64,000 nt of DNA from a virus. The stretch spans positions 61,025 to 125,024 of the IMG/VR virus record IMGVR_UViG_3300025141_000034. The stretch is one strand, 5' to 3'. The notes below the pieces were generated by a model. That model was not told where the DNA came from, did not search any database, and saw only the letters and a list, made by a program, of their open reading frames with translations. Both the position numbers and the translations under genes were made by a program. Positions 4,494-58,114 of the stretch are shown one piece after another. How positions within the stretch are numbered: the first letter of the stretch is position 1; the number at the start of each line of letters is the position of its first letter.

Positions 4494-4529
4494 TTCATAA
4501 TATTTATCTCTGTTTAACGAAGGTGCATG

Positions 4530-4952
4530 ATGAAGGTTAGTAGAAGTCAACTTAGGCAGATGATTAGAGAGGTCATGGCTGATCTTGAAGAGGACGCACT
4601 CTTTTCAAATCAGGATGTTCTCGGTCTTCAACCTGAAAAAGACATACCTGGACAGACACCCAGTCCGGTTTGTAAAAAATGTAGAATGAGCCACCCCCAC
4701 GGATCATGTCCTCACACAGCTGAGATTGGAAGAAATTTAAGCTACGGTCATCAGGGCTCAGGAGATGAAGAAGGAAGAATGTCTAGAAGCCAGCTATACA
4801 AGGTTTCAAAATACGCGCAGAGTCTTCATGACATCATTAGAGATGATGATGATCTACCTGAGTGGGTTCAATCAAAAATAGCTGTGATGGATAATGATAT
4901 AGATAAGATAAAACACTATCTTGAGTACAAGCTTAAAAGAATGGAGAAGTGA
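4530..4952 (+). CDS. Small protein with putative capsid-targeting N-terminus
   Basis: I do not recognise a family. The protein (about 140 residues) begins MKVSRSQLRQMIREV, a basic amphipathic helix ending I-R-E that closely resembles the N-termini of the proteins at 46101 and 14536. Residues ~45-65 carry CKKCRMSHPHGSCPH, a possible metal-binding Cys/His cluster. The C-terminal third is charged and helical (residues ~90-140). Start: two ATGs are adjacent (4527, 4530); AAGGTG at 4520-4525 fits 4530 better. By analogy with T4 internal proteins, the N-terminal helix could address the protein to the prohead core and be removed by the prohead protease, but that is inference. Confidence 0.6.
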   Translation: MKVSRSQLRQMIREVMADLEEDALFSNQDVLGLQPEKDIPGQTPSPVCKKCRMSHPHGSCPHTAEIGRNLSYGHQGSGDEEGRMSRSQLYKVSKYAQSLHDIIRDDDDLPEWVQSKIAVMDNDIDKIKHYLEYKLKRMEK

Positions 4953-14093: not shown

Positions 14094-14536
14094 TGGGTGA
14101 ATATTATCCAGAAAGAGGCGCTGGACCAAATTTCGTTCCAGCATATCAGGCTTCAGGTGTTCCTTTTGTGACTTCATCGCTTTCAAGTGATCTAACAACA
14201 ACACCTGTTCAGATAGATTTTCCATATGTGACTCGTTTCTTTGTTGTTAATAACATAGGATCTGTTCCAATAAGGGTTGGATTTACAGAAAACGGTGTTA
14301 ATGCAAAGGGATCTGGTAACTCTAGCAACTATTTTCTTCTCGAGGCGTCTGGATCAACTGGACGTCTTGAGCTAAGGTGCAAGTCTTTATTCATAAGAAC
14401 ATCAAATTCAACAGGCGGATATACACTTCTTGCTGGATTGACCGGTATCAGCTCAGGGCAATTTCCAGTTTTAACTGGAACTGTCTCAGGATCTGCTCCT
14501 GGTCCTGTAGATGAAAAATTCCAGGGTGTCGGATAA
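14093..14536 (+). CDS. Beta-rich head-module protein, possible decoration protein
   Basis: 147 residues, almost entirely beta strands and glycine/serine turns, with PYVTRFFVVNNIG, PIRVGFTENGV and ELRCKSLFIRTSN, suggesting a compact beta sandwich. It lies between the protease and core-type genes, with TAATG overlaps at both ends. There is no transmembrane segment or signal peptide. A capsid surface or vertex protein is a plausible reading; I do not recognise a named family. Confidence 0.55.
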   Translation: MGEYYPERGAGPNFVPAYQASGVPFVTSSLSSDLTTTPVQIDFPYVTRFFVVNNIGSVPIRVGFTENGVNAKGSGNSSNYFLLEASGSTGRLELRCKSLFIRTSNSTGGYTLLAGLTGISSGQFPVLTGTVSGSAPGPVDEKFQGVG

Positions 14537-15048
14537 TGGCAAAGCTTTCAAGAAATGACCTTAAAGGAATTGTTAAGGAGTGCTTGATTGAAATATTAAA
14601 TGAGGGAATTTCAGGAGATATGCCCGTAAGAAGGCCACAGATTTCAGAATCAAGATTGAAATCTAGAACTTCTCGAGCAAGTGTAGCAGCCTCTTCATCA
14701 ACACCGAGCAGATCTGTGCTTGATTCTATAACGTACGGAAATAAGAGAAAGAGTAAGGGTAAGCAGGTTGCAAATGAAAAATTTGATAGAAATGTAAGTA
14801 ATACTATTGAAAATCTTACAAGTGATCCCATCTTATCTTCAATATTTCAGGATACTGCAAGAACAACACTTCAAGAGCAGAAAGATGCAAGAGTTGCTGA
14901 TAGCGGAATGATGTCACATGAAGCTGCTGTTCTTACTCAAGGAGACTCAGCAGCAAGAGTTGCTTCACAATCAGATCCAATGGATATGTTTTCCGAATCG
15001 TCTGAAAAGTGGGCACAGCTTGCTTTTTCATCTCCTACTAGCAAGTAG
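14536..15048 (+). CDS. Putative prohead core protein with capsid-targeting-like N-terminus
   Basis: 170 residues, low-complexity and Ser/Arg/Ala rich in the middle. It begins MAKLSRNDLKGIVKECLIEILNEG, an amphipathic helix that ends in L-I-E and L-N-E, both possible gp21-type cleavage sites. The C-terminus ends SEKWAQLAFSSPTSK, resembling the ending RWAKLAGITE of the scaffold at 16651. The location between the protease and capsid genes fits a core protein. Function is inferred from position and the N-terminal motif. Confidence 0.6.
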   Translation: MAKLSRNDLKGIVKECLIEILNEGISGDMPVRRPQISESRLKSRTSRASVAASSSTPSRSVLDSITYGNKRKSKGKQVANEKFDRNVSNTIENLTSDPILSSIFQDTARTTLQEQKDARVADSGMMSHEAAVLTQGDSAARVASQSDPMDMFSESSEKWAQLAFSSPTSK

Positions 15049-18171: not shown

Positions 18172-20103
18172 ATGAGTAAATCCTTTACGTTAAATCAACT
18201 AACAGAGGGTATTCGCCAGAGACATCTAGGTTCTCAAAACAAGCGTCTCGTTGAGAAGTGGTCTCGTACCGGTCTTCTTAGAGGCCTTGACGGACAGCAC
18301 AGAGAGAATATGGCGGGCCTTCTTGAAAATCAGGCTGCACAGCTTCTTAGAGAAGCTAACTCGATCGGCACAGGTGCCGGTGGAGGTACAGCCTCCGGAG
18401 ACCTTAACGGTTTCACAAATATCGCATTTCCAATTGTTCGTCGTGTTTTCGGCGGTCTAGTGGCAAATGAGCTAGTTTCAATCCAGCCGATGAGCCTTCC
18501 TTCCGGACTGCTTTTCTACCTGGACTACACATACGGCTCACGAGTCGGTGGTGATACAAACCTCGCCACAGGCGCTGCTGGAACAGTAGATGCACAGACA
18601 TATAAGATTGGTCAGTCAATCTATAACAACCCTGCTGGAAAGGGTATCCGTTCAGGATCTCTTGGTGTCGGTGGTCAGTATGACCTCGTCGGAGCAGGAT
18701 TCTCGAAGGTTCACACGTCTTCAGAGACAATTACCACAAAGGCCTCAGGTGCTTATGGTGTCGGCGGTTCTTCAATGACACAGGATACACTAGCTGTTGC
18801 AACAGGTACAGACGGTAAGCTTCTGCAGTTCGACCCTCAGGTCACAAGACTTATTGAGGATGACCCCGGTCAAAATAACACCGGAAGATTCTCATTCATT
18901 CTATGGAATCTGAGCTCATTCCCTGCAAGCATTGACCTTACACAGGCGAAAGAAGTTGCACTATTCAGCGGGCAGACTGTTTCAGATGCTGATGCTACCA
19001 CATTCAACTATAAGAATCTTCCTGTGACAATTCAGGGCGGTAACGGAATTAAGAATGTTCGTCGTCTCAACCAGATCGGTACATACGATGCTGGATCAGG
19101 TGTCTTTACAGCAGATCCATTTGCCAATAGAAACACCACAAACGGTGTTCTACTAACAGTCGTGTCCGGTGTTAATGCAACACAGGCTGCTACAGGTCAT
19201 CACATTACAGCATCGTTTGTTATCGCACCGACGCTGGGTGTTGACAGTAGTGATGGTTCCACACTTACGATTCCTTCGTTTGAGTCGAACTTCAGCTCAT
19301 CGTCACCCTCACCGATAATCCCAGAGATCGACATCAAGATCGAGTCCATCGCGGTTACAGCGGTTACCCGTAAGCTACGTGCTCGCTGGTCACCAGAGCT
19401 CGCCCAGGACCTGAACGCCTACCACAGCCTTGACGCTGAGGTTGAGCTTACTCAGATCCTCTCCGAGCAGATCGCACTCGAGATCGATAGAGAGATCTTG
19501 AATGACCTACTGGTCGAGGCACAGGGAGCTAACTTCTACTGGTCGCGTCTACCTGGTAAGTTCGTTAACAAGCGGACAGGTTCCGAGGCACTTAAGGCTA
19601 GCACACTAGCTTCAGGTCCTCAGTTCACAGGTACAGTCCGTGAGTGGTATGAGACTCTTGTTGAGACTCTTATCGATGTTGCTAATGAGATCCATCGTAA
19701 GACACTTCGTGGTTCGGCTAACTTCATTGTCTGCTCACCTGATGTTGCAACAATCTTCGAGGCATCCGTGCTCTATAAGCCGGCTCTCAAGATTGATGGC
19801 GACGGACAGGTTGGTGCTCCATTCTCACTGGGTGCTGCGTCAATCGGTTCTCTAAGTAACCGCTTCACAGTCTACAAGGATCCCTACTTCCCACGGAACA
19901 AGTGTCTCGTCGGATATAAGGGTGGAAGCTACCTAGAGACAGGCTATGTATACGCACCTTATGTGCCGCTGATCGTCACTCCCACTATCTTCCAGCCGGA
20001 AGACTTCACACCCCGTAAGGGCGTGATGACCCGCTACGGCAAGAAGATGGTTCGTGCTGACTTCTACGGTACAGTTACAGTCATGGATATGGACGTTATC
20101 TAA
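18172..20103 (+). CDS. Major capsid protein (T4 gp23-like)
   Basis: 643 residues, larger than T4 gp23 (521). The N-terminal ~61 residues form a helical propeptide ending LLENQAAQLLRE; cutting after L-R-E61 would leave a mature start ANSIGTG, closely parallel to the gp23 processing site. Then FPIVRRVFGGLVANELVSIQPMSLPSGLLFYLDYTYGS, a very typical gp23-family segment. An insertion-like beta region (~180-380) precedes the conserved C-terminal domain (RWSPELAQDL, EILNDLL, KCLVGYKG, YAPYVPL). It has a ribosome-binding site (TAGGAG), codon usage richer in C and G third positions than neighbours, and is followed by a strong terminator, all consistent with very high expression. Confidence 0.95.
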   Translation: MSKSFTLNQLTEGIRQRHLGSQNKRLVEKWSRTGLLRGLDGQHRENMAGLLENQAAQLLREANSIGTGAGGGTASGDLNGFTNIAFPIVRRVFGGLVANELVSIQPMSLPSGLLFYLDYTYGSRVGGDTNLATGAAGTVDAQTYKIGQSIYNNPAGKGIRSGSLGVGGQYDLVGAGFSKVHTSSETITTKASGAYGVGGSSMTQDTLAVATGTDGKLLQFDPQVTRLIEDDPGQNNTGRFSFILWNLSSFPASIDLTQAKEVALFSGQTVSDADATTFNYKNLPVTIQGGNGIKNVRRLNQIGTYDAGSGVFTADPFANRNTTNGVLLTVVSGVNATQAATGHHITASFVIAPTLGVDSSDGSTLTIPSFESNFSSSSPSPIIPEIDIKIESIAVTAVTRKLRARWSPELAQDLNAYHSLDAEVELTQILSEQIALEIDREILNDLLVEAQGANFYWSRLPGKFVNKRTGSEALKASTLASGPQFTGTVREWYETLVETLIDVANEIHRKTLRGSANFIVCSPDVATIFEASVLYKPALKIDGDGQVGAPFSLGAASIGSLSNRFTVYKDPYFPRNKCLVGYKGGSYLETGYVYAPYVPLIVTPTIFQPEDFTPRKGVMTRYGKKMVRADFYGTVTVMDMDVI

Positions 20104-20124
20104 GATAACAATCAATTAAATCTT

Positions 20125-20154
20125 GAGGCGGCTCTTTGAGCCGCCTCTTTTTTT
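20125..20154 (+). terminator. Strong intrinsic terminator after the capsid gene
   Basis: GAGGCGGCTC and GAGCCGCCTC pair over 10 bases around a TTT loop, followed by seven T residues. It would end the head operon just behind the major capsid gene. Confidence 0.93.
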
Positions 20155-20192
20155 GTCTGTTAACTGATTGACGTGAATTGATACCATTTATA

Positions 20193-21068
20193 GTGATCAT
20201 CTCTCACAAGAATAGATTTGTCTTCTTTAAGCCTATGAAGGTCGCCGGATCTAGCGTGGAAGTAGCACTTAGTGAGCACTGCGATGATGGTGATATTTTA
20301 ACAGGAACTAATCACGTAGATGAGATTTCGTCAGATGAATATGAGTATCCTACAAGAAATAACATCGTAAAGCATACACATAAGGGAGATGTTGCATTAG
20401 CAATAATGAGGAAGACAGGAAATATTCACAAGGTCACTCCTGAGATGATTGAGGCGGGATTAAGAATAGAGATCTTAGAGCCGAGATTTCACATGCATGC
20501 GCTTCCAGAGCAGATCTTAGATCAGGACATTCTTAAAGAAGGGTATAGAAAAATAACTGTTGTGAGAAATCCGTGGGACATGATCATTTCATTTTTTTGG
20601 TGGTCATTCTATACATCTCCAAGCGGATATGTTGACTCTGGTGGCACCGTTCATGAGAGCAATGGTGACTTAGGTTTTACTCCGAGAAGTCATCCAGAAG
20701 CTGCTCCTCGACCGTTAGACGATGCAGATACGCTGAGTCGTAAGCTAGAGATCTTTTGTCAGCTGACAGGTGACTTTAAGGGTCCCTTGGGTGTTGAGAA
20801 AGATAAGAATGTTCTTGATTGGTTCATAGAGACGAATAAAAAGTATTATCAGATTGATTACGATTATGTGATAAGACACGAAAGCCTCCAGCATGATTAC
20901 AATCAACTCTGTAGTGATCTCGATCTGCCTCCTTCAAGACTGCCTAGATTAAAAAGCAGTCAGAGAAAGATAAGACTGCCATATCAGGATTACTTTAACG
21001 AGTGGACTAGGTCTCACATTGATGATAGGGTAGCAATGTGGATTGAAAAATTTGGATACTCATTTTAA
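20193..21068 (+). CDS. Sulfotransferase family protein
   Basis: A PAPS-dependent sulfotransferase-like enzyme of 291 residues. The N-terminus has the 5'-phosphosulfate loop (FFKPMKVAGSSVEVAL), and VVRNPWDMIISFFWW holds the 3'-phosphate Arg/Ser-type motif. By family it would move sulfate from PAPS to a hydroxyl of a glycan, lipid or protein. The GTG at 20193 gives a start MIISHKNRFVFFK typical of these proteins; the upstream TTG 20178 is possible. No Shine-Dalgarno sequence is seen. It stands alone after the capsid terminator and before a structured leader, like an independently acquired accessory gene. The substrate is unknown; virion or host-surface glycans are candidates. Confidence 0.8.
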   Translation: MIISHKNRFVFFKPMKVAGSSVEVALSEHCDDGDILTGTNHVDEISSDEYEYPTRNNIVKHTHKGDVALAIMRKTGNIHKVTPEMIEAGLRIEILEPRFHMHALPEQILDQDILKEGYRKITVVRNPWDMIISFFWWSFYTSPSGYVDSGGTVHESNGDLGFTPRSHPEAAPRPLDDADTLSRKLEIFCQLTGDFKGPLGVEKDKNVLDWFIETNKKYYQIDYDYVIRHESLQHDYNQLCSDLDLPPSRLPRLKSSQRKIRLPYQDYFNEWTRSHIDDRVAMWIEKFGYSF

Positions 21069-21096
21069 TTTAATGATGATATCTTAATACTTAGCG

Positions 21097-21159
21097 TTAA
21101 GCCCGATGCACGGTATAAGGCGGAACCTACACGTTAGCATTGGAAGCATGTAGGCTTAA
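21097..21159 (+). ncRNA. Possible structured leader RNA upstream of the 21184 gene
   Basis: The spacer can fold as a three-way junction: outer helix TTAAG (21097-21101) with CTTAA (21155-21159), a short stem CCG/CGG (21103-21105 with 21111-21113), and a 6-bp stem CCTACA (21126-21131) with TGTAGG (21149-21154). The ribosome-binding site AAAGGAG follows about 12 bases later. Possibly a 5'-UTR stabilising element or cis-regulatory RNA. I cannot match it to a known riboswitch or ribozyme, and no tRNA features are present. Confidence 0.35.
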
Positions 21160-21183
21160 ACACAAAAAATAAAAGGAGAAATT

Positions 21184-21663
21184 ATGCCAAAGGTAAAATA
21201 TACATCATCTGCGGGACTAGTTCAGTCAGCAGGAGATGATGTTCAAATCGAGGGAACACTTCGTCTTCGAGCCACGAGTGCTCCAAGCCTGACAGTCAAG
21301 TATGCTGCAGCAGCTGTTCCAGGTACTTCAAATCAGACTATCACCATTGCCCAGCTAAAGACCGGCATTCTATATGACGATCCTGAAGGTGCAGGAACAT
21401 GGACGCTTCCGACAGCAACGTTGCTTTTGGCAGGTCTTCCAGGATATGCTGTCGGTGATTGTCTAGACTTTTCTGTCATTAACAATGCTACGACAGGTGC
21501 AGACGAGATAATTACTATGGCAGTGGGAACCGGTGGCACAGCTGCTGGAAATATGCTAGTTGCTGCTCCAAATGTTACTGAGGACCAGGAAAATTCCGGA
21601 AGTGCAATGTTTAGAATTAGAATTACATCATCTTCAGCGTATGTGTGCTATAGATTAGCATAG
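21184..21663 (+). CDS. Small beta-rich virion-type protein (candidate capsid decoration)
   Basis: 159 residues, strongly beta and alanine/threonine rich, with TWTLPTATLLLAGLPGYAVGD, DFSVINNATTGADEIITMAVG and a C-terminus FRIRITSSSAYVCYRLA. The pattern is that of a compact jelly-roll-like surface protein; no catalytic residues are apparent. It has an excellent ribosome-binding site (AAAGGAG), a structured leader and its own terminator, so it is a single-gene transcription unit likely made in large amounts. Position soon after the capsid gene supports a head decoration role, which is inference. Confidence 0.6.
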   Translation: MPKVKYTSSAGLVQSAGDDVQIEGTLRLRATSAPSLTVKYAAAAVPGTSNQTITIAQLKTGILYDDPEGAGTWTLPTATLLLAGLPGYAVGDCLDFSVINNATTGADEIITMAVGTGGTAAGNMLVAAPNVTEDQENSGSAMFRIRITSSSAYVCYRLA

Positions 21664-21686
21664 TACATCTGATTAATTGTCCCATT

Positions 21687-21720
21687 AAAAGCACCTCTTT
21701 TTACAGGGGTGCTTTTATCA
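21687..21720 (+). terminator. Intrinsic terminator after the 21184 gene
   Basis: AAAAGCACCTC (21687-21697) pairs with GGGGTGCTTTT (21706-21716) with one G-T pair and an 8-base loop. A-rich and T-rich flanks make it potentially bidirectional. Confidence 0.88.
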
Positions 21721-21772
21721 TTTTCATATTTCACAAGTTGCACAGCTGAATAATTATCTATAGGGCTGCTTT

Positions 21773-23005
21773 ATGGCGTCTAGCATGAGAACCCTTAAGA
21801 AAAACTACAGGAAAGAACCACCAAAAGAGCGTAAGAAGAAAGAAACTAACTCTAAATTTTACGCCGACCAGGACATGGTGGAAAATAACCTAACGCTAGA
21901 CGATAATAGCAAGCAAGAGCGAAAGCCAGCCTCACCTAAAGGGGAGATTAAGAGAGATATGACCAGTACTAATGACGATTTTGATTTTGTAGCAGACTAT
22001 GATGATGCTGTGGTCGGAGAGAGTGAAACTCTTCTTCCTGGAAACACAGCACCTTCGTCACTTTCCGTCGGTTTTGTCGGTGTAGGTGGGGGTGGCGGAA
22101 AGATGGCAAAGGCCTTTATAGATCTAGGATTTACTCAGACTCTGGTTGTGAATACCACAGACAAGGATCAGCCAACTGAACTGGGAGAGGATCACTTCCT
22201 TCTCATTCCAGGTGCAGACGGTGTAGGAAAGAATGTTGAGTTAGGTCGTCAGATTCTATCTAATAATAGCGCACTTGTTGAGGATCATCTTAGATCTAAG
22301 GTTGGAAGAGTTGACTGGCTATTTGTTCTTGCAGGCGGCGGCGGTGGGACAGGAAGCTCTTGTTACTCACTGGACTCAGCACTTCAGCGATATCTTAAGT
22401 CAGTATCTGCTTCTGGAAATGTTGTCTATGTAGTGACATCGCCTACAGCGCAGGAGCTCTTGAACCCGACGATTAAGAAGAACTATGAGTCATTACTGTC
22501 AGATGTCACAGGATCAGCGCATGTGGTTATAGACAATGAGAGACAGCTACAGCTACTTAGAGGAAAGGTTGGCATGCTCGGGCTCTATCCTTCTGCAAAT
22601 AAGAACTTTGCAAAATTGATTGCACAGGTTCTTAAGCTATCTTCAGAATCTTCACCAATTCAGACATTTGATTCCAAAGATCTTGAAGTTTGTCTCTCAA
22701 CAAAGGGAAGACTCTTTCTCGGAACAACAGTTGTTAAGGATCCAAGCGATCTAAACCTGGGATCGATGATTTATCAGAACTGCATGACGAAGTCTCCATG
22801 TCCCTCACCTAGCGGTAAGATAAAGACAGGTGTTTTGTTGCTTGTAGTTACTGAGGCGATGGCCTCCGATCCGGCAATAAGCACTCAGCTCGAGGCTGCA
22901 ATATCTTATGTCGGCGGAAGAACTGATGCACTATTCTCAGGTGTCTACGTTAGAGAGGGATTGCCGGGGCTTGTTGCTATTTCTGCCCTAGGCGGAATTG
23001 AGTAA
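21773..23005 (+). CDS. FtsZ/tubulin-like GTPase encoded in the head region
   Basis: A 410-residue protein with a ~95-residue basic then acidic, probably disordered N-terminal extension, then an FtsZ-type GTPase. Loops in order: T1 GFVGVGGGGGK (100-110), T2 NTTD (127-130), T3 GADGVGKNVELGR (147-159), signature T4 AGGGGGTGSS (187-196), T5 VVTSPT, the segment VVIDNERQLQLLRGKVGML at the ribose/guanine region, and a T7-like loop TFDSKDL in which D300 and D303 match the catalytic Asp pair of FtsZ (NVDFADV). It ends VAISALGGIE with no obvious FtsZ C-terminal peptide. It should bind GTP and probably polymerise. Closer by eye to FtsZ than to jumbo-phage PhuZ. It lies between a decoration-type gene and the neck genes; cellular role unknown. 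Confidence 0.85.
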   Translation: MASSMRTLKKNYRKEPPKERKKKETNSKFYADQDMVENNLTLDDNSKQERKPASPKGEIKRDMTSTNDDFDFVADYDDAVVGESETLLPGNTAPSSLSVGFVGVGGGGGKMAKAFIDLGFTQTLVVNTTDKDQPTELGEDHFLLIPGADGVGKNVELGRQILSNNSALVEDHLRSKVGRVDWLFVLAGGGGGTGSSCYSLDSALQRYLKSVSASGNVVYVVTSPTAQELLNPTIKKNYESLLSDVTGSAHVVIDNERQLQLLRGKVGMLGLYPSANKNFAKLIAQVLKLSSESSPIQTFDSKDLEVCLSTKGRLFLGTTVVKDPSDLNLGSMIYQNCMTKSPCPSPSGKIKTGVLLLVVTEAMASDPAISTQLEAAISYVGGRTDALFSGVYVREGLPGLVAISALGGIE

Positions 23006-23143
23006 AAAATAAGAAATATTTATATACCCCGCTTTCAAAGATGCTGAAGACTTTACTCTGTACTCTTTGTTAAATATTTTCATCATTGAATCTCCCGTTT
23101 AAGTCCATATTTATGGATAGTTATCTTAGTAACCGGAGTGTCA

Positions 23144-24328
23144 ATGGCAACATTTACAAATACAACTAATCCCACACCTTTTGGATTTTTTGACTCTGAT
23201 GGTGACTTTAAGGCGGAAGCTGATAATGTAGTTACATTTGTCAAGAGAAAGATGGGAGATGATATTCTATCTGTTGAATTAACAAAAAAGCAGATCTGGG
23301 CAAATCTTGAGGAGTCATGTCTAGAGTATGGCTCAATATTAAATCAATATCAGGCAAAGTCACAGCTAATTCAGTTTCTTGGAATGCCAACAACAGGCTC
23401 AGATGGTCACATGTCAGGGTCAGAGAGCAAGTATCCAAGAGAGAATCTTGAGTACCTAATCAGATTTGCAGAGCCGTATGCCATGGAAGCTGGCGTGGGA
23501 GGCTCATATAATATGATCTCAGGCTCTATACAGCTAGAAATGAATAGACAAGATTATGACATCTACTCAGAGCTTAAGAATTTTGACGGTGACGTTATAT
23601 TCACGTCTGGATCAAATACTAGACCGAAGACAAAGCTTAAGATTAGCGAGGTCTTTCACTTTGGACCTGAGGCTGCATATAGATTCTTTGACACGACAAG
23701 TGCTATTAATTACTTGAATAATGAATTTTCATTTGAGTCGTTTACTCCAGAGACTATATTCTATGTTCTTCCTGTCTTTGAGGATATTCTTAGAGCTGGA
23801 CAGCTAGACTTATCAAATAGAGTTCGTAGATCAAATTACTCTTATAAGATTGTAGGAACAAATATTAGAGTGTATCCCACACCCTCTAGTGCTAACCCGG
23901 CAAAGCTTTATCTGAGAGTGATGTACTATCCAGATCCTCTAAATCCATCATATCATGATGAGACAATAGGCGGCGTATCTAATTTGTCTAATGTTCCATT
24001 TGGAAATCTAGTGTACAGTAAGATTAACAGCATCGGAAGACAGTGGATTAGACAGTATTCACTTGCTCTATCTAGAGAGCAATTAGGTCTAATTAGATCA
24101 AAATTTGGAAGTATCCCTGTTCCAGGGGCTGAGGTATCTTTAAATGGAGGAGAGCTTATAACACAGGGAAGGGCAGATAGAGATGCTCTTATCACTCAGC
24201 TAAAGGAGATGCTTGATACACTTACATACGATAAGATCATGGAGACAGCTGCATCTAGAGCTGAATTTATTCAAAAGCAGCTTAGGTTCTCACCCATGCC
24301 AAATGGGTGGACAATTTTCATGGGATAG
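23144..24328 (+). CDS. Neck / head completion protein (T4 gp13-gp14 region)
   Basis: About 394 residues. The N-terminal part (KKQIWANLEESCLEYGSILNQYQAKSQLIQFLG) is the typical start of myovirus neck proteins in this position, and the C-terminal half (RVYPTP, YPDPLNPS, SKINSIGRQWIRQYSLALSREQLGLIRSKF) is helical. It follows the order neck, neck, tail completion, sheath seen in T4. ATG 23144 has GGAG at 23135-23138; GTG 23138 lies inside that site. The preceding 138-base spacer (23006-23143) holds an AT-rich AATATTTATATA and a small inverted repeat TCCATA/TATGGA, nothing else evident. Confidence 0.75.
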   Translation: MATFTNTTNPTPFGFFDSDGDFKAEADNVVTFVKRKMGDDILSVELTKKQIWANLEESCLEYGSILNQYQAKSQLIQFLGMPTTGSDGHMSGSESKYPRENLEYLIRFAEPYAMEAGVGGSYNMISGSIQLEMNRQDYDIYSELKNFDGDVIFTSGSNTRPKTKLKISEVFHFGPEAAYRFFDTTSAINYLNNEFSFESFTPETIFYVLPVFEDILRAGQLDLSNRVRRSNYSYKIVGTNIRVYPTPSSANPAKLYLRVMYYPDPLNPSYHDETIGGVSNLSNVPFGNLVYSKINSIGRQWIRQYSLALSREQLGLIRSKFGSIPVPGAEVSLNGGELITQGRADRDALITQLKEMLDTLTYDKIMETAASRAEFIQKQLRFSPMPNGWTIFMG

Positions 24329-26283: not shown

Positions 26284-29200
26284 ATGGCCGAACAGACCTT
26301 CAGATCACCAGGATTTTTTGAGAGAGAGATCGACCTATCCGGGAGAGTTCAGGAAGTTGCAGGAGTCCCCGCAGGTATCATTGGAACATCAGAATTTGGT
26401 CCAGCATTTATTCCCGTGACACTTGGATCGTTTGCAGACTTCAAAGAAAAATTTGGTGACTTAGACTCAACCAAATTTGGGCCCTACGCTGTTAATGAGT
26501 TTCTTAAGAATAGATCTGCAGTGACATTTATAAGGGTTCTTGGTGCCGGAGCAAATTCAGAAAGCACTGATATTCAAAATACTGTAAACCAGGGAACTGT
26601 TAAGAATGCAGGATTTAGAATTAAAGGGTCTGCTGCAACAGAGGCACCTGGTGAAAAGGGACATAAGGGTGCAGTTCAATTTATAGCTGCAAAACACGCC
26701 CTACAGACAAATGAGGCATTTGGCTATCCGATCTTTACTGATAATGATAGTTTTGATGTATCTGCCGGTGGTGATGTCTTTCTTGTCAGGGGGATGATCT
26801 TTACGTCAACTGGTAGCCGTGTACAGATTCTTCCATACTATGCAAATTATCCCGTTACAGCGTCTGTTGAGGATATTGCAGCAGTTGGACCTGATATCAA
26901 TGATTCCGTAAGCTATAAGAAGTTTAAAATAGTTCTTTCAAGCTCCGCGGGAGCAACATTTGCCAATGATGATGGAGTTGCTGGAATTAGAATCTACACA
27001 GCGTCACTTAACCCAACAAGCGATGACTACATTGGAAAGACATTAAATACAGACCCCACTAGATTTCAGGAGGAGCAGCACCTGCTCTACGCTGACTTCG
27101 CTGTAGAGGATGAGGTTGCATCTGTTACATCCTATGTTGCAATTCTTTCAGGATCAGCGTCAACATCTGCTGGGTCAGGAGATACCTCACAGACTTATCG
27201 TGATATGTACGGTAGATTTGACACAAGATATAGTCCATCAAAGACAACGTTCTTTACGTCGCAGTTATTTGGAAATGTTAAGTACAATCTCTTTCACTTT
27301 GAGACCATCTCTGACGGAGCAAATACATGTGACAAGTATAAGATCTCAATATCAAACCTTAGAAAGTCAACTGACCCCAGTGTTGAGTATGGATCGTTTA
27401 CAGTTTTGGTAAGAAATTTTGGTGACTCTGATACAAGTCCAGAAATCTTAGAGCAGTATCCCCTTTGCACACTTGACCCAACTGATGAAAATTTCGTTGG
27501 AAGAAAGATCGGTGACCTTAGTGTTAAGTACAATTTTGATGCACTAAGTGAGGATGAAAGAAGATTTGTTGTGAAGGGAGATTATCCAAATGTCTCTAGC
27601 AGGATTAGGATTGTCTTTAGTGACGATCTAAAGAATGGAAATGTTCCAGCTAGCGCACTACCCTTTGGATTTAGAGGTCTACCAGCGCTGAAGACAAATA
27701 ATCTGCTTTCTGATACGACATCGACATCAGACGTAAGGCAAATTATTAAAGACGTCTTAAACGGAGGCTCAGACGGAACAAGACTGGCATTCATTACCGG
27801 ATCAAATTCAGGGCGACCTGGAATTGCAGACGGTGGTGTAATAGTAGGGTCAATTGTTCCACCAGTTCCGATGACGTTTAAAGCAACTCAGGGAACCATG
27901 GGAACTTCTGGATATGCCGGGAAGCCAGGAACTAATGAGAGGGTTAATTCAAAGTACTACTGGGGTGTGAAGACAACACGAGTCCCACTGACAGGATCTC
28001 TGTCTAATGCTGTGTTGAATTCAAACGCATCATCAGAGACAAATGAGCTAGTCAGAAGTTATACAAAGCTCTTAGGTATTCAAAAGCTAGATGCTCTTGT
28101 TACCGGCTCAGGCGCAGATGTCTTCTGTAGTAATGAGTTTACCCTTAATAAGGTTGCTTTAAGCACAACACTTGAAAGCGGTGCAACAACAAGAACGTTA
28201 ATTAATACAATTGTACAGAGCCTTACTGGAACTGCAGATGAGCACATGCTAGAGGCTGCGTATATTAGAGATGGAAGAATCAGCAAAGGAAAGAGTTACA
28301 CAGTTAGAGAGAAGGGTGTTGCAGACCACAGAGTATCGCTAGGTTCTCTCTTAACGTTGACATCGTCAGTATATTTTAACAGGTTTACAAAGTACGCAAA
28401 ATTCACTAACATCATGCACGGCGGATTTGATGGAAATAATATTCTAGATCTGGACATGTCAAGAATGAATGATAGAGCAACAACAGTTGACTCTAGAGGA
28501 AAGGCCGGAAGGTCCAGACCGGAAGGTTCGACAGATCTTGATACCGGTCTAGATGCAACATCTACAAGTGGAGCAGGAAAGAATAACAATGCTGTCTTCT
28601 CATACAGATCAGCAATTGATATCATGACAGATCCGATGGTGACAAGAATTAATATTCTAGCTGTTCCTGGAATTAGAGAAGGCTTTGTGACTGATCACGC
28701 AGCTGATAAGACAAGGGAGTATAGCCAGGCAATATATCTGATGGATATTCCAAGCTACACAGACGGTGATGTTAGGATATTTACCAGCGATGACTTTAGG
28801 CCCAATGTCACAAAGACGCGAGACAGGCTTGATAGAAGATCAATAGATAACAACTACGCTGCAACCTATTTTCCTGACGTCACAATCACAGACGATAGGA
28901 ATGGAAATGCTGTTAGGGTTCCATCTTCTGTTATAGCGCTTTCTGCACTTGGATTCAATGACGCAGTTTCTTATCCCTGGTTCGCACCCGCAGGATTTAA
29001 TAGAGCTGCTTTGTCAAATGTTGTCAACGTTGCAACAAGATTAAATAATGCTGATAGAGATGATCTGTACGATTCCAGAATTAATCCGATAGCATCTTTC
29101 CCACAAGCTGGGTTTGTTATATTCGGTCAGAAGACGCTACAGCAGGCAAAGTCTGCGCTAGACAGGGTAAACGTGAGAAGAATGCTTCTGGAGGTTAAGA

Positions 29201-29475
29201 GAATAGTCTCTAATGCAGCTAAAAAGCTGGTGTTTGAACAAAATACACCTGCCACAAGATCAAAATTCATAGCTCAGGTAACTCCCATGCTAGCAACAAT
29301 TCAAAGCCAGCAGGGAATAGATAAGTTCCGTGTAGTTATGGATGAGAGTAACAATACTGTAGAGGATATTGAATCTAATAAGCTGAACGGAAGAATAGTT
29401 CTAGTTCCCACAAGAGCAATTGAATTTATTGCTATTGATTTCATTATCACTAATTCAGGTGTAAGCTTTGAGTAA
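26284..29475 (+). CDS. Tail sheath protein, first paralogue (T4 gp18-like)
   Basis: 1063 residues, against 659 in T4 gp18. The N-terminus (FRSPGFFEREIDLS, VAGVPAGIIGTSEFGPAFIPVTLGS, FGPYAVNEFLKN) and C-terminus (YPWFAPAGFNRAALSNV, GQKTLQQAKSALDRVNVRRMLLEVKR) are unmistakable sheath core sequences that form the contractile lattice. The middle contains extra beta domains, likely exposed on the sheath surface. It has a strong ribosome-binding site (GAGGAGA). A second sheath gene follows after 38 bases, so the tail may be built from two sheath types. Confidence 0.93.
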   Translation: MAEQTFRSPGFFEREIDLSGRVQEVAGVPAGIIGTSEFGPAFIPVTLGSFADFKEKFGDLDSTKFGPYAVNEFLKNRSAVTFIRVLGAGANSESTDIQNTVNQGTVKNAGFRIKGSAATEAPGEKGHKGAVQFIAAKHALQTNEAFGYPIFTDNDSFDVSAGGDVFLVRGMIFTSTGSRVQILPYYANYPVTASVEDIAAVGPDINDSVSYKKFKIVLSSSAGATFANDDGVAGIRIYTASLNPTSDDYIGKTLNTDPTRFQEEQHLLYADFAVEDEVASVTSYVAILSGSASTSAGSGDTSQTYRDMYGRFDTRYSPSKTTFFTSQLFGNVKYNLFHFETISDGANTCDKYKISISNLRKSTDPSVEYGSFTVLVRNFGDSDTSPEILEQYPLCTLDPTDENFVGRKIGDLSVKYNFDALSEDERRFVVKGDYPNVSSRIRIVFSDDLKNGNVPASALPFGFRGLPALKTNNLLSDTTSTSDVRQIIKDVLNGGSDGTRLAFITGSNSGRPGIADGGVIVGSIVPPVPMTFKATQGTMGTSGYAGKPGTNERVNSKYYWGVKTTRVPLTGSLSNAVLNSNASSETNELVRSYTKLLGIQKLDALVTGSGADVFCSNEFTLNKVALSTTLESGATTRTLINTIVQSLTGTADEHMLEAAYIRDGRISKGKSYTVREKGVADHRVSLGSLLTLTSSVYFNRFTKYAKFTNIMHGGFDGNNILDLDMSRMNDRATTVDSRGKAGRSRPEGSTDLDTGLDATSTSGAGKNNNAVFSYRSAIDIMTDPMVTRINILAVPGIREGFVTDHAADKTREYSQAIYLMDIPSYTDGDVRIFTSDDFRPNVTKTRDRLDRRSIDNNYAATYFPDVTITDDRNGNAVRVPSSVIALSALGFNDAVSYPWFAPAGFNRAALSNVVNVATRLNNADRDDLYDSRINPIASFPQAGFVIFGQKTLQQAKSALDRVNVRRMLLEVKRIVSNAAKKLVFEQNTPATRSKFIAQVTPMLATIQSQQGIDKFRVVMDESNNTVEDIESNKLNGRIVLVPTRAIEFIAIDFIITNSGVSFE

Positions 29476-29513: not shown

Positions 29514-32500
29514 ATGGCTGAGCTGACATTCAAAAGTGCTGGAGTTAGCACGAGAGAAATAGATCTTTCATCGTCTAGCGTAACGGGTCCGGTAGGAGTT
29601 CCTGCTGGTGTCATTGGAACAGCTGATCAGGGACCAGCGTTTGTTCCCGTAACAGTTGCTAATTTTACTGAGTTTGTATCAACATTTGGACCAACAGATG
29701 GTGAGAAATTTGGACCGCTTGCTGTTAATGAGTGGCTGAAAAATGCACAGTCGTGCACATACGTCCGTGTTCTCGGTGTGGGTGATGGTAAGAAGAGAAA
29801 TACGTCTACAGGAAAGGTTACAAATGCAGGATTCATAGTTGGTGCCAAGCAGGTTCAACCAAACGGTCTTGTAGGAACTAATCCATACGCAAACACACAC
29901 GGTGACAGAGGAAACGTTCACTTTCTCGGATGCTACATGTCAGAGTCGGCTGGTAGTACAGTGTTTAGTAGTGCTGGAGGTCCACAGGCTTCACTTGCTT
30001 TTGCAAAAGCAAAGCTCACTATGGCAGACGGTGATAATAATACTAACGGACAGTTTACAGAAGGCGAATATGTCATAATCGTATCCCAGGACGGTACAAA
30101 AAGGGTATATGTTCTTTCTGATGGTAGTGAAAGTGGTGCAGCTGCAACCGGCGCTGTTTGTACCACTTCCACTGACATGGGCTCAGCAAATCTTTCCTCC
30201 GATGTTGCAGCTTTGGGTACATGTATAGCTGTAAACAACAACCTGAACACACATGGGCAGTATTTAATTTTAAATGAACTTAAAGCTGCAATTTCTCACG
30301 CAAACGGTCACAATGGAAAGATTACATGTAGCTCTGATGTAGCCAACACTGACGGCCCAGTATCAATTACACTAACACAGGCAATAGCAGGTGTTGACGG
30401 AAACACTGTAATAACTACAAATATAAGTCAGCTAACTACTGTTAATTTTGGAGGCGGGGGTGCAATTGCAGTTCCCATCCTCCGCGGAATTCTCATGTCG
30501 GCATCCGGTGTCATGCCGCTTCTCTCAGGAAATTTCCAGGTTACAGTCCCGGGATCAGGACCATCGTCAGCTGCAATCGGCAGAGACAAAGATGCCACCC
30601 TAAGGGGAGGTCTAACTGGATCGATGATACTAAGCAGCCAGGACTTTGTTCTATTCCTCAACGGTCACAAGGGATTGGGTTCTGATCCTAGAATCATCAC
30701 TGCGTCGATGGATCCTAACTCTCCTGCCTATATGTCTAGAGTTCTAAACACAGATCCCGCGATGATTGAGCAGAAGGGTCACCTACTCTACGCTCACTAC
30801 GACGTTCATCCAGCGATGGCAGTTCCTACAGGTTCTGGTATCCTGACTCCGGGTGCTACAGAGTTTCATAATAGTGAATATAATGATTGTATATTCATCA
30901 CAACGGGATCACTGAGCGCTGTGAACTTTGAAGGAAAGGGTCAAGCTGGCGGAAGCGCCACAGTTCCGGAGTATAGGTCGTGGGAGGATAGATTCACATC
31001 AGCAAAGTCACCCTACGTGATCTCACAGGACTTTGGTGGAAAGCCGTATGATCTATTTAGGGTAGAGTCACTATCTGACGGATCAGGCGTCAGCACTAAA
31101 TATAAGATCTCAATTGAGGGTCTAGCTAAGTCTAACTCTGACGTTAATAAATTTGGAAAGTTTGACCTCGTCGTTAGGGACTTTTACGACACAGACAATG
31201 ACAAGGTTGTCCTTGAGTCATTTAGGGGTCTAAGCCTAGATAATGAATCTGATAGATACTTTGCCAGGGTCATCGGTGATCAGAAGACATACTTTGACTT
31301 CGATCAGTCGTCAGACTCTCAGAAGATAGTCGTCGACGGCGATTTCACGAATCAGTCAAGATATATTCGTGTCAAGGTGAGCAACACACAGAGAGCAGGT
31401 GAGGTTCCTGACAACGCCCTCCCACTAGGCTTCAGAGGTCCTAGCCACCTGGTGACATCAGGCTCAGATCTTGTAGCGACTCTCGGTCACGGTGCTGCTA
31501 ACTTTGTTACTGTTCAAACAGGATCAATGAAAGAGCTTACTGAGCTACCAATTCCATACAGGGATAACTTGGCTCTCGGGACAGGTGACAAGAAGAGGGT
31601 TTCATCTCAACTATACTGGGGAATCCAGACAACAAGAAAGACAGATCCCACAGAGCCCAATAAACCTGATCTCTTCGACAGGTCGTTTGAAGGATTCGCG
31701 AAGTACTTCCCAGACTTTGCACTAAGCTATCAGAAGTTCTCAATTGGAAATAATGCAGGAAAAGCAGATACATTTGCAAATGGAATTCTAGACTCTGATA
31801 GGTTCAATAATAACAAGTTCACGCTTGAGAATGTCAAGGTCACAACAGGATCAGACACATACGCTAATCCTCGGGAATGGGCTAGCGCATCATACACACG
31901 TGCCGGCGGCGTAGGAACTGATAGAGATAATAAGACGCGGGCATTTAGCGTAGACGATCTAGGTATCGTTGGTAATAGAACATATGCCAAGTTCACATTC
32001 CTTCTTCAGGGAGGGTTTAACGGAACGAACATCTTCAACAAGGATAGGTCTAACCTATCTGACAATGCTGCCAAGAGAGAGATGGATGACTCCACAAATC
32101 AAGGCGGAAAGGACGGTTGCACAGTCGCATCATTCAGAAAGGCTGTAGATGTAATGGGCAATAAGTCTGATGTTGAGATTAAGCTTCTAGCAATTCCCGG
32201 CATGAGAGACGAGGCCATTACAGATTACGCAACTGATGCAGTTGAGAATAGGTTTGACTCACTCTACATCATGGATATTGAGGAGAAGGATGTTCTTAAC
32301 AATGTTGTAACATCGTCAGCACAGGACATAAGTGTTAGCGACACAGTGACAACGTTTAAGAATCGTGCTCTCGACTCATCGTTTGCAGCTGCATACTTCC
32401 CAGATGTTGTGATTCAGGATCCAAATAAGAGAACAAATGTTAGGTGCCCTCCGTCAGTAGCTGTTCTTGGAGCATTCTCCCTCAACGACGCTATCGGTCA

Positions 32501-32999
32501 TCCGTGGTTCGCTCCTGCAGGATTCTCCCGAGGTGCGCTGACATCTGTCATACAGGCATCAGTTGACCTTAACAGGGCAAATCTAGATAATCTCTACGAC
32601 GCTGACATCAATCCGATTACGGATTTCCCAGGAACCGGTGTCGTTGTCTGGGGTCAGAAGACGCTTCTAGCAGCTGCATCTGCTCTTGACAGGGTTAACG
32701 TAAGAAGGCTTCTGATAGACATCAGAAGAAAGGTGAGAGCTATCGCAAACACCCTTCTATTCGAACCCAATAGGGAGTCCACCCTGGAGAAATTCTCCGG
32801 TCTTGTCAATCCAATCCTGCAGAAGATCCAGGAGAAGAGCGGTCTGGCTCGCTACAAGGTGATCATCGATACGACCACCACGACACAGGCAGACATAGAG
32901 AATAACACACTTCGAGGAAAGATCTTCGTTCAACCCACAAGAACTGCAGAGTTCATAGCACTAGACTTCGTTGTTTCAAATGCAGGCGCAGAAGTCTAG
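29514..32999 (+). CDS. Tail sheath protein, second paralogue with inserted beta module
   Basis: 1161 residues, homologous to the previous sheath at both ends (VPAGVIGTADQGPAFVPVT, HPWFAPAGFSRGALTSV, GQKTLLAAASALDRVNVRRLLID). Compared with the first copy it carries an insertion at about residues 165-315 (GEYVIIVSQDGTKRVYVLSDGS to TTVNFGGGG) resembling the module at the start of the window's first protein. Third codon positions look more C/G rich than in the first copy, possibly reflecting higher expression. Both copies keep the core, so both are probably functional. Whether they mix or serve different tail regions cannot be told. Confidence 0.92.
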   Translation: MAELTFKSAGVSTREIDLSSSSVTGPVGVPAGVIGTADQGPAFVPVTVANFTEFVSTFGPTDGEKFGPLAVNEWLKNAQSCTYVRVLGVGDGKKRNTSTGKVTNAGFIVGAKQVQPNGLVGTNPYANTHGDRGNVHFLGCYMSESAGSTVFSSAGGPQASLAFAKAKLTMADGDNNTNGQFTEGEYVIIVSQDGTKRVYVLSDGSESGAAATGAVCTTSTDMGSANLSSDVAALGTCIAVNNNLNTHGQYLILNELKAAISHANGHNGKITCSSDVANTDGPVSITLTQAIAGVDGNTVITTNISQLTTVNFGGGGAIAVPILRGILMSASGVMPLLSGNFQVTVPGSGPSSAAIGRDKDATLRGGLTGSMILSSQDFVLFLNGHKGLGSDPRIITASMDPNSPAYMSRVLNTDPAMIEQKGHLLYAHYDVHPAMAVPTGSGILTPGATEFHNSEYNDCIFITTGSLSAVNFEGKGQAGGSATVPEYRSWEDRFTSAKSPYVISQDFGGKPYDLFRVESLSDGSGVSTKYKISIEGLAKSNSDVNKFGKFDLVVRDFYDTDNDKVVLESFRGLSLDNESDRYFARVIGDQKTYFDFDQSSDSQKIVVDGDFTNQSRYIRVKVSNTQRAGEVPDNALPLGFRGPSHLVTSGSDLVATLGHGAANFVTVQTGSMKELTELPIPYRDNLALGTGDKKRVSSQLYWGIQTTRKTDPTEPNKPDLFDRSFEGFAKYFPDFALSYQKFSIGNNAGKADTFANGILDSDRFNNNKFTLENVKVTTGSDTYANPREWASASYTRAGGVGTDRDNKTRAFSVDDLGIVGNRTYAKFTFLLQGGFNGTNIFNKDRSNLSDNAAKREMDDSTNQGGKDGCTVASFRKAVDVMGNKSDVEIKLLAIPGMRDEAITDYATDAVENRFDSLYIMDIEEKDVLNNVVTSSAQDISVSDTVTTFKNRALDSSFAAAYFPDVVIQDPNKRTNVRCPPSVAVLGAFSLNDAIGHPWFAPAGFSRGALTSVIQASVDLNRANLDNLYDADINPITDFPGTGVVVWGQKTLLAAASALDRVNVRRLLIDIRRKVRAIANTLLFEPNRESTLEKFSGLVNPILQKIQEKSGLARYKVIIDTTTTTQADIENNTLRGKIFVQPTRTAEFIALDFVVSNAGAEV

Positions 33000-46100: not shown

Positions 46101-46721
46101 ATGAAGATTACTAGAAGACAGCTAAGAAGATTGATTAATGAAGAGATTGAAGTTTTCAATATTAGGAATAAGGGCCAATTTGCCTATGTGATGCAAAATA
46201 TTATGGACAACCCCGATCAGCAGATTAATAATGATCTTATAGAGCCAATAAAGGGAAAGATAATTCTATCAAAGGGGCAGACATTTAATGATATTACGCC
46301 AAATGCATCTTATATTTTAATGAAGTATTACAACATAGAGTCAAATCCATCTGCAAATTTAAGAAAACCTCTTTCAAGAACCCCTAGTAGAGAAATTGAT
46401 CAACAGCGACGTCAAAGTCAGGCTTTACATACAGGCCCAGATGATGTTGACTCAGTCGCAAGTTCACTAATGAGTCATGTTATGGGAGGATCGCCACCGC
46501 TTAGGGGATCAATTAATAAAATTGTAGCGGATGCCAAGAGGGGTGAGATAGCTGTATATCTTCAAGCTCCTGATAAAAGATCTGCAACTGACCAACAGGT
46601 TGCATGTGCTTTAAGATTTTTACTTGATAACAAGATTAATCCAGCAAGTAAGTATATTATTAATCCGTGCGGCTATAAAGATAGAAAGCATTCTGATCTA
46701 ATGATGATTGTTAAGCTTTAA
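46101..46721 (+). CDS. Protein with putative capsid-targeting N-terminus
   Basis: 206 residues starting MKITRRQLRRLINEEIE, which matches the N-terminus of the protein at 4530 in 8 of the first 12 positions and ends in I-N-E, a T4-type prohead protease site. The remainder has a helical middle and a C-terminal alpha/beta region (IVADAKRGEIAVYLQAP, QQVACALRFLLDNKIN). No family recognised. Although it lies in the replication region, the tag suggests that it may be packaged in the head and delivered with DNA. This is an inference. Confidence 0.6.
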   Translation: MKITRRQLRRLINEEIEVFNIRNKGQFAYVMQNIMDNPDQQINNDLIEPIKGKIILSKGQTFNDITPNASYILMKYYNIESNPSANLRKPLSRTPSREIDQQRRQSQALHTGPDDVDSVASSLMSHVMGGSPPLRGSINKIVADAKRGEIAVYLQAPDKRSATDQQVACALRFLLDNKINPASKYIINPCGYKDRKHSDLMMIVKL

Positions 46722-56166: not shown

Positions 56167-56769
56167 ATGAAGTGGACAACAAAAATATCTGATCTTGTTA
56201 AAGAGGTGGAGCTAAGAAAGAATCCAGTAATCATTACTGTTAATAAGTTTGATGAAAAATCAGCTAAGGAATTTCAGCAGCAAGTCGCCCAGGCTCATAA
56301 TACAGGACAGAATGTAATTCCCATTGTTATAGACTCTTACGGCGGACAAGTTTATAGTTTGATGTCAATGATAAGCGCAATTAATCATGCAGAACTTCCA
56401 GTTGCTACTATTGTTGAGGGAAAGGCAATGTCTTGTGGCGCAATTCTATTTTCTTTTGGAGAGCAAGGATTACGATTTATGGATCCAGATGCCACAGTAA
56501 TGATTCACGATGTTTCATCAATGAAGCATGGAAAAGTTGAAGAGATAAAGGCATCTACAGAAGAGATGGAAAGATTAAATCAAAAAGTCTACACAATGAT
56601 GGCTAGAAATTGTGGAAAAAAAGATGATTATTTTCTTAAGCTAGTCCATAAGAAAGGTCACGCAGACTGGTTTTTAGATGCAACAGAAGCTAAGCGACAT
56701 GGAATGGCAAATCAGATAAGAGTTCCTAAGTTTAATATCAATATTTCAGTTGACATAGACTTTGAGTGA
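56167..56769 (+). CDS. ClpP-like serine protease
   Basis: 200 residues. VIDSYGGQVYSLMSMISAI, EGKAMSCGAILFSFG with S89, MIHDVSS with H114 and WFLDATEAKRHGMAN with D171 reproduce the Ser-His-Asp triad and oxyanion strand of ClpP. No ATPase partner gene is in the window, so it may work with host ClpX/ClpA or act alone as some phage ClpP-like prohead proteases do. The gp21-like protease at 13479 already fills the prohead role here, so a regulatory or host-directed function is more likely. No clear ribosome-binding site at normal distance. Confidence 0.85.
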   Translation: MKWTTKISDLVKEVELRKNPVIITVNKFDEKSAKEFQQQVAQAHNTGQNVIPIVIDSYGGQVYSLMSMISAINHAELPVATIVEGKAMSCGAILFSFGEQGLRFMDPDATVMIHDVSSMKHGKVEEIKASTEEMERLNQKVYTMMARNCGKKDDYFLKLVHKKGHADWFLDATEAKRHGMANQIRVPKFNINISVDIDFE

Positions 56770-57697: not shown

Positions 57698-58114
57698 GTG
57701 AGAAATAAATTGGAACTTGTATCGACGCATGTTTGTAAAACACAAAATCTCGGTATGCATGGCAACCTCTTCGGCGGAGTAATGCTTTCCTGGCTGGATG
57801 AGGCTGGAGCAGCATTCACGTCCCAGGTGTGCGGAACACCAAGGATGGTGACTAAGTCAATTTCTGAAGTAGTGTTTCAGAAGCCAGTTAGAGCTGGACA
57901 GATCATTAAGGTATACGCTGATGTTGTAAGAATTGGAGAATCATCAATTACAATTAGGCTGGAAGCTAGAAGGCATAGTGTGTATAACGGATCACAGAGA
58001 AATGTTGTCTCTGTTGATATGGTTTTTGTCAGAATAGACGGTGATGGTGAGCCTGTTCCAATTAAGACAATTAGGTCTGACTATCAGGATAGAAGATCTG
58101 AAAAGGAACAGTAA
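57698..58114 (+). CDS. Acyl-CoA thioesterase (hotdog fold, YciA/ACOT-like)
   Basis: 138 residues. MHGNLFGGVMLSWLDEAG (H21, N23, G26-G27, D34) is the catalytic segment of YciA-type hotdog thioesterases, followed by KSISEVVFQKPVRAGQIIKVYADVVRIG. It would hydrolyse acyl-CoA to free acid and CoA. It starts at GTG 57698, four bases after the amidase stop, so it is in the lysis/late unit. Unusual for a phage; it could alter host lipid metabolism or membranes, but this is conjecture. Confidence 0.85.
   Translation: MRNKLELVSTHVCKTQNLGMHGNLFGGVMLSWLDEAGAAFTSQVCGTPRMVTKSISEVVFQKPVRAGQIIKVYADVVRIGESSITIRLEARRHSVYNGSQRNVVSVDMVFVRIDGDGEPVPIKTIRSDYQDRRSEKEQ

Follow-up and report, generated by a model that had tools for sequence, protein, structure and literature searches.

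In proteins of the tubulin/FtsZ superfamily, GTP is held between two subunits, and the acidic residues in the neighbor's T7 loop act in trans, across the filament interface, to trigger hydrolysis. Tubulins encoded by phages are an established kind of these proteins and, to our knowledge, those with a known function come either from nucleus-forming phages or from plasmid-like prophages. By analogy, the closest functional counterpart of the protein described here would be PhuZ, which aids capsid migration and positioning of the nucleus and is non-essential (PMC11724907). In a survey of jumbo phages from the sea, tubulin was reported for the phiKZ-like cluster alone (PMC9123017), and two papers on Far-T4 phages (PMC4360716, PMC7198788) make no mention of an FtsZ-like protein. 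In the openly searchable journal papers, no tubulin is described in the phage lineage considered here. Distant phage FtsZ-like proteins already carry that name in databases; what appears new is a separate family in this T4-like lineage. The window, a stretch of 64,000 nucleotides from the marine bacteriophage record IMGVR_UViG_3300025141_000034 of IMG/VR, encodes a member of this family.

The GTPase gene, its conservation and the predicted fold

The gene and the motifs of its product are as follows.

21773..23005, + strand: tubulin/FtsZ-superfamily GTPase gene, 410 amino acids plus stop, ATG start (profile, structure and motif evidence)
21773..22054, + strand: N-terminal extension, residues 1-94; up to residue ~64 basic and variable (beginning MAS..), then an acidic-aromatic motif; disordered in the model
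21980..22006, + strand: motif FDFVxxYDD, specific to the family, residues 70-78; F70 and F72 identical in all 30 aligned members
22079..22102, + strand: T1 loop GVGGGGGK, residues 103-110 (conservation, FtsZ profile alignment)
22151..22168, + strand: T2, NTTDKD, residues 127-132; N127, T128, T129, K131 and D132 invariant
22211..22249, + strand: T3, GADGVGKNVELGR, residues 147-159 (alignment of relatives)
22334..22357, + strand: T4 GTP-binding signature GGGGGTGS, residues 188-195 (GGGGGTGSS, 188-196); G190-S195 in 57/57
22532..22558, + strand: DNERQLQLL, residues 254-262; equivalent to the FtsZ T6/NxR region
22574..22645, + strand: predicted central helix H7, residues 268-291 (AlphaFold model)
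22661..22687, + strand: T7 catalytic loop QTFDSKDLE, residues 297-305 (TFDSKDL, 298-304); D300, D303 and E305 in 57/57

All the motifs that the earlier note had read from the sequence (T1, T2, T3, T4, the NERQLQLL region and a T7-like TFDSKDL) are present, and all those listed follow each other in the FtsZ order. The window protein matches Pfam PF00091 with E 4e-6 and 27.6 bits, just below the 33-bit gathering score, and a match to PF00091 is found in 30 of 30 relatives; the NCBIfam ftsZ model matches 17 of 17 aligned members (best E 4e-13). An FtsZ profile-profile alignment covers 291 columns, spans both domains (E 1e-10) and pairs D300 and D303 with D209 and D212 of E. coli FtsZ. Both acids of the FtsZ T7 pattern, NxDxxD/E, are kept, and the asparagine (N207 in E. 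coli) is replaced, by T298 in the window protein and mostly by T, A or S in the family. The window protein stops one residue past the last strand (400-409) and therefore lacks the FtsZ C-terminal linker or peptide, as had been supposed for the peptide; in all relatives inspected, the chain likewise ends after the last strand, and the linker and the FtsA/ZipA-binding peptide are absent. The ~95-residue N-terminal extension is also real, with residues 1-66 mostly at pLDDT <50.

Conservation was counted over 57 distinct core sequences. The residues conserved in 98-100% of these include G103, G105, G106, G108 and K110 in T1; N127, T128, T129, D149, G150, K153 and G158 in T2 and T3; G188, G190-S195 and D254-E256 in T4 and the NxR region; and F299, D300, D303, L304 and E305 in T7. 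The T4 loop and D300/D303, on whose persistence in relatives the initial assignment depended, are both kept in all 57. Between the window and close relatives, dN/dS of the core is 0.016-0.029 (0.07 against one more distant relative); in the same three pairs, the capsid protein reaches 0.11-0.18, the neck gene 0.03-0.09. Such low core values indicate purifying selection and a functional gene product and are as would be expected of a protein with large self-interfaces. Residues 1-64 have a dN/dS of 0.17-0.33 between the window and relatives, which suggests that this stretch is translated but weakly constrained; the FDFVxxYDD motif that follows it is kept family-wide.

An AlphaFold model built with 30 relatives as the alignment reaches a pLDDT of ~95 over residues 90-410 and a pTM of 0.77. 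It contains the full two-domain arrangement of the tubulin superfamily, whose absence would have spoken against the initial assignment, with H7 (268-291) running into the T7 loop and then H8. A Foldseek search identifies FtsZ (E 1.5e-19), CetZ (E 1.7e-19) and TubZ (E 6.8e-19), with TMq 0.65-0.66 for FtsZ and TubZ; the modeled fold clearly belongs to the tubulin/FtsZ superfamily and does not discriminate between subfamilies. The best viral structural match (BFVD, searched with a first, poorer model) is A0A6J5RW92, with E 6e-20 and 20% identity. The protein is accordingly identified as a superfamily GTPase whose active site is intact.

Conservation of both halves of the composite site, together with the extreme constraint on the core, points to self-assembly into dynamic filaments, and the protein is probably a GTP-hydrolyzing filament former. 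We infer the polymerization, its timing, the positioning role and the tether in the following scheme. The phage would make the GTPase in the course of infection, perhaps late; its monomers would bind GTP via T1-T4 and stack head to tail, such that the T7 loop (D300, D303) of one subunit completes the GTPase site of the next, and hydrolysis, confined to the filament, would render it dynamic. The filaments would most likely organize the infected cell, with viral DNA and/or heads being placed as by PhuZ in phiKZ-type phages, and the charged N-terminal arm with FDFVxxYDD would probably serve as the tether, to a partner of phage or host origin. The reading of this protein as a GTP-binding, self-assembling phage cytoskeletal protein that places viral DNA and/or heads in the manner of PhuZ, while belonging to a separate family, is the one toward which we lean, with somewhat better than even confidence.

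Placement relative to FtsZ, PhuZ and TubZ

A maximum-likelihood tree of 43 rows covers the phage family, FtsZ, PhuZ and two plasmid TubZ-like proteins, from Paenibacillus and Bacillus velezensis, that represent the TubZ side. In this tree, the phage family forms one clade (91/92), PhuZ another (100/100) and FtsZ a third region. Both plasmid proteins group with the phage clade at 96/88 support, a join flagged as long branches meeting, and given this warning the family is called separate, with no claim on its origin. By sequence, the phage GTPases are a family of their own, apart from FtsZ and PhuZ. A search of the PDB sequences with the family profile detects FtsZ (1e-9), CetZ (2e-6, 3zid), TubZ (2e-5) and PhuZ (1e-4). 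The suggestion that the protein is closer to FtsZ accordingly survives for profile and pairwise scores but not for the tree, where the family is a separate clade with the TubZ-like plasmid proteins as doubtful neighbors, and the fold does not discriminate. Membership in FtsZ is rejected on the score of 32.1 bits against an equivalog cut-off of 295.2 bits on the position outside FtsZ in the tree (long branches) and on the missing C-terminal linker and FtsA/ZipA-binding peptide.

The distinction from PhuZ drawn earlier is borne out by the tree, and membership in PhuZ is rejected because the PhuZ clade (100/100) excludes the phage family. A PhuZ query against 7 large related records, run without a positive control, yielded no match; multi-subunit RNA polymerase was uninformative as a phiKZ marker, since phiKZ itself gave no match.

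The top PDB sequence match being bacterial FtsZ, and host FtsZ being a known phage target, the protein might instead disable or recruit the host Z-ring, through capping of FtsZ or copolymerization with it, resulting in an enlarged cell and a bigger burst. We consider such interference with division unlikely. Identity to FtsZ is only 23-27%, including the FtsZ of MAGs whose bins held related contigs, and the peptide that would contact FtsA/ZipA is missing; because of this ~25% identity and missing peptide, insertion into the Z-ring, and with it the copolymerization that the earlier note had entertained, is improbable. Moreover, a capping inhibitor needs neither a full active site nor a core with very low dN/dS, and the phage FtsZ inhibitors known to us are short proteins.

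The fold is equally near TubZ and FtsZ (TMq 0.65-0.66), and the plasmid TubZ-like proteins are tree neighbors (96/88), which would be compatible with a filament that segregates the phage genome, in the manner of a plasmid, in carrier or pseudolysogenic cells. Segregation of this type appears distinctly unlikely, given that the tree join is flagged as unreliable, that no tubR-like small partner gene is kept beside the GTPase gene across its different contexts and that no tubC-like iterons or repeats were found around it. On the same context, without a linked tubR gene and without tubC repeats, membership in TubZ is rejected.

Carrier phages and genomic contexts

A search with two conserved patterns identifies at least 354 encoding places in IMG/VR viral contigs. 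The largest carrier contig has 293,409 bases, and its ends overlap by 38 identical bases, consistent with a complete circle. A tblastn search with two family members finds no match among 50,697 deposited phage records, and the matches listed among 84,980 prokaryote genomes are four MAG contigs, which are probably viral contigs in bins. All 10 large records contain a single copy of the gene, and 9 of the 10 encode a gp23 capsid protein. In capsid and terminase, the nearest deposited phages with a named host are Flavobacterium phage immuto and Microcystis phage Mel-JY01; Rhodothermus phage RM378 is more distant in the capsid comparison. These relationships place the T4-like (gp23) carrier lineage near the Far-T4 phages. 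The family profile does not find the gene in immuto, Mel-JY01, RM378 or two huge uncultured phages. Of 14 contigs whose capsid protein is related to that of one family member, 13 lack the gene, as do 18 of 19 contigs in a further set that overlaps the first; most of these contigs are fragments, which makes the absences only partly informative. Presence in only 1 of 14 contigs with a similar capsid implies that the gene is not essential to T4-like growth, and the non-essential nature of PhuZ would fit such a patchy distribution.

The bins of the four MAG contigs are Flavobacteriales in three cases and Halobacteriovorax in one. The tags encoded by phage tmRNAs include ANDNVEYDYALAA and ANNNNHFEERLAA; those of the ANDNVEYDYALAA type look nearer to the tag of the Halobacteriovorax MAG (ANNDFAPAMAA) than to that of the Flavobacteriaceae MAG (GENNYALAA). 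Given this likeness, the host assignment from binning is not trusted.

In the window, the GTPase gene lies between capsid and neck genes, as initially described, with two other genes between it and the major capsid protein (MCP) gene:

18172..20103, + strand: gp23-type MCP, left border of the slot (PF07068, E 4e-76)
20178..21068, + strand: sulfotransferase-like gene, variable cargo whose presence varies between relatives
21184..21663, + strand: small MPKV..GLVQ head-associated-like protein (phrog_673, E 4e-6)
21686..21717, + strand: intrinsic-terminator-like hairpin, just upstream of the GTPase gene
23138..24328, + strand: neck/head-tail adaptor-like gene, bounding the slot on the right (phrog_211, E 1e-8)

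Across 39 loci with both border genes in view, the MCP-neck interval measures 162-2,671 bp, and the GTPase gene is inside it at 5 of them; among the other cargo are sulfotransferase-like genes, zinc-finger-like proteins and the recurrent MPKV..GLVQ protein. The interval (20103-23138 in the window) is a variable cargo slot across the lineage. The earlier note had taken the capsid-neck location as a hint of a role in head assembly, but synteny with these genes is kept in only 24 of the 57 distinct sequences, the remainder being located elsewhere (32) or near the terminase (1), and the tree of these sequences requires about 6-7 location changes. The 293-kb record is collinear with the window over the whole terminase-to-tail block, but its GTPase gene is about 100 kb away. 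Given that the location varies while the core remains near 60% identical, the function would be independent of the neighboring head genes, and the gene has no consistent linkage to a partner, an anchor or a DNA-binding protein. A head/neck assembly factor or virion-associated GTPase, which the position in the window and in 24 of the 57 would favor, is thus highly unlikely: the gene is elsewhere in 33 of the 57, is missing from related contigs with the same head genes, occupies a slot of varying cargo and is tmRNA-adjacent in other phages, and no conserved T4-type prohead-protease site (LxE) was seen in the N-terminal extension when the sequences were inspected by eye. The head-assembly reading from synteny is rejected on these grounds.

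Several other features of these genomes deserve a record. The window contains two adjacent, related, very long tail-sheath-like genes (26284-29475 and 29514-32999), and two large related records carry a tandem pair of gp23-type capsid genes (G001:C1:176509-180120 and G005:C1:139350-142938). Three window genes (4527-4952, 14536-15048 and 46101-46721) encode proteins with similar starts, like MKxSRxQLRxxIxE, possibly a targeting signal of head or virion proteins. A phage Clp protease and a 4HBT thioesterase (56167-56769 and 57698-58114) are encoded beside ribonucleotide reductase, an arrangement conserved in the 293-kb relative.

In 27 distinct relatives, most of those with the gene outside the capsid-neck slot, a tmRNA gene is located upstream of the GTPase gene on the same strand, at a distance of 150 nt or less in 13 and 500 nt or less in 19 of the 26 measurable cases; one of these tmRNAs is confirmed by Rfam (99 bits). 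The loci include:

L061:5492-5858, L069:5403-5801, L072:5611-5974, L087:5531-5930, L102:7447-7809 and 22 more: tmRNA

No tmRNA is in view at any capsid-neck locus, and the window's own record contains no tmRNA or tRNA within its 125 kb; in the capsid-neck phage G007, a tmRNA is present ~93 kb from the GTPase gene. Of the large records that carry the gene, 9 of 10 have a full-length tmRNA, versus 0 of 11 capsid relatives without the gene; lineage and contig size differ between the sets, so this is no more than an association. L061 (591-2528) and some 9 relatives have a gene for a PrkA-type serine kinase/AAA protein (PF08298 and PF06798, E 1e-140) a few kb upstream of the FtsZ-like gene, and a PIN-PhoH gene lies downstream.

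Since the terminator-like hairpin directly precedes the GTPase gene in the window, this gene probably starts a new transcription unit and forms a unit of its own. In many relatives, an element ATATTTATA is found 25-45 nt upstream of the gene, and in two related genomes it also precedes portal, sheath and tail genes. Strong matches to it are located near gene starts in 12/16 cases in G6 (3/13 on the control strand) and in 15/41 in G1 (2/23). In the window phage, the promoter-like element is not enriched (1/5 strong matches near a start versus 1/4 on the control strand), so that the case for late timing is weak; judging from the upstream sequences, late-phase expression of the GTPase gene is plausible.

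Implications and comparison with known systems

A GTP-dependent switch or scaffold that does not polymerize, as the replaced T7 asparagine might suggest, is very improbable because the T7 acids, which in this superfamily act in trans across the filament interface, are invariant and the conservation of the core is extreme. Under the favored reading as a filament-forming cytoskeletal protein, cells infected by these viruses probably acquire a small internal skeleton of viral origin; such skeletons have so far been documented chiefly in another group of giant phages. A highly conserved tubulin-family GTPase in hundreds of T4-like contigs would make viral cytoskeletons wider than thought and offers an independent system for asking what phages need filaments for. 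More tentatively, and with considerable doubt, this phage-specific branch of tubulins could form the cytoskeleton of T4-like phages that are abundant in the sea and make no phage nucleus, and could tend to travel with tmRNA as an infection module. If so, large phages in general, rather than nucleus builders in particular, would use filaments of their own to organize the cells that they infect.

Among the known systems, A0A6J5RW92 ("FtsZ Cell division GTPase", uncultured Caudovirales phage, BFVD) is the top viral structural match and only 20% identical to the window protein. The archaeal CetZ is similar in fold (E 1.7e-19) but scores below FtsZ in sequence (3zid, E 2e-6). TubZ of plasmids and prophages is likewise similar in fold (E 6.8e-19, TMq 0.66) and is a doubtful tree neighbor, whereas the phage gene lacks the tubR/tubC context, its product has no C-terminal tail and the TubZ profile score is below that of FtsZ. 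FtsZ (TIGR00065) gives the top sequence scores for the window protein among PDB entries and shares with it the two-domain fold, the T1-T7 order, the T4 GGGTGS and both T7 acids; the phage protein differs in its 23-27% identity, the ~95-residue N-terminal arm, the replaced T7 asparagine, the missing C-terminal linker and peptide, and its place in a separate clade. PhuZ of phiKZ-type jumbo phages is, like the present protein, a tubulin-superfamily GTPase encoded by large-genome tailed phages, but the two are only 19-23% identical, and the carriers here are T4-like phages with a gp23 capsid, the window encoding both a T4-like capsid protein and a T4-like portal.
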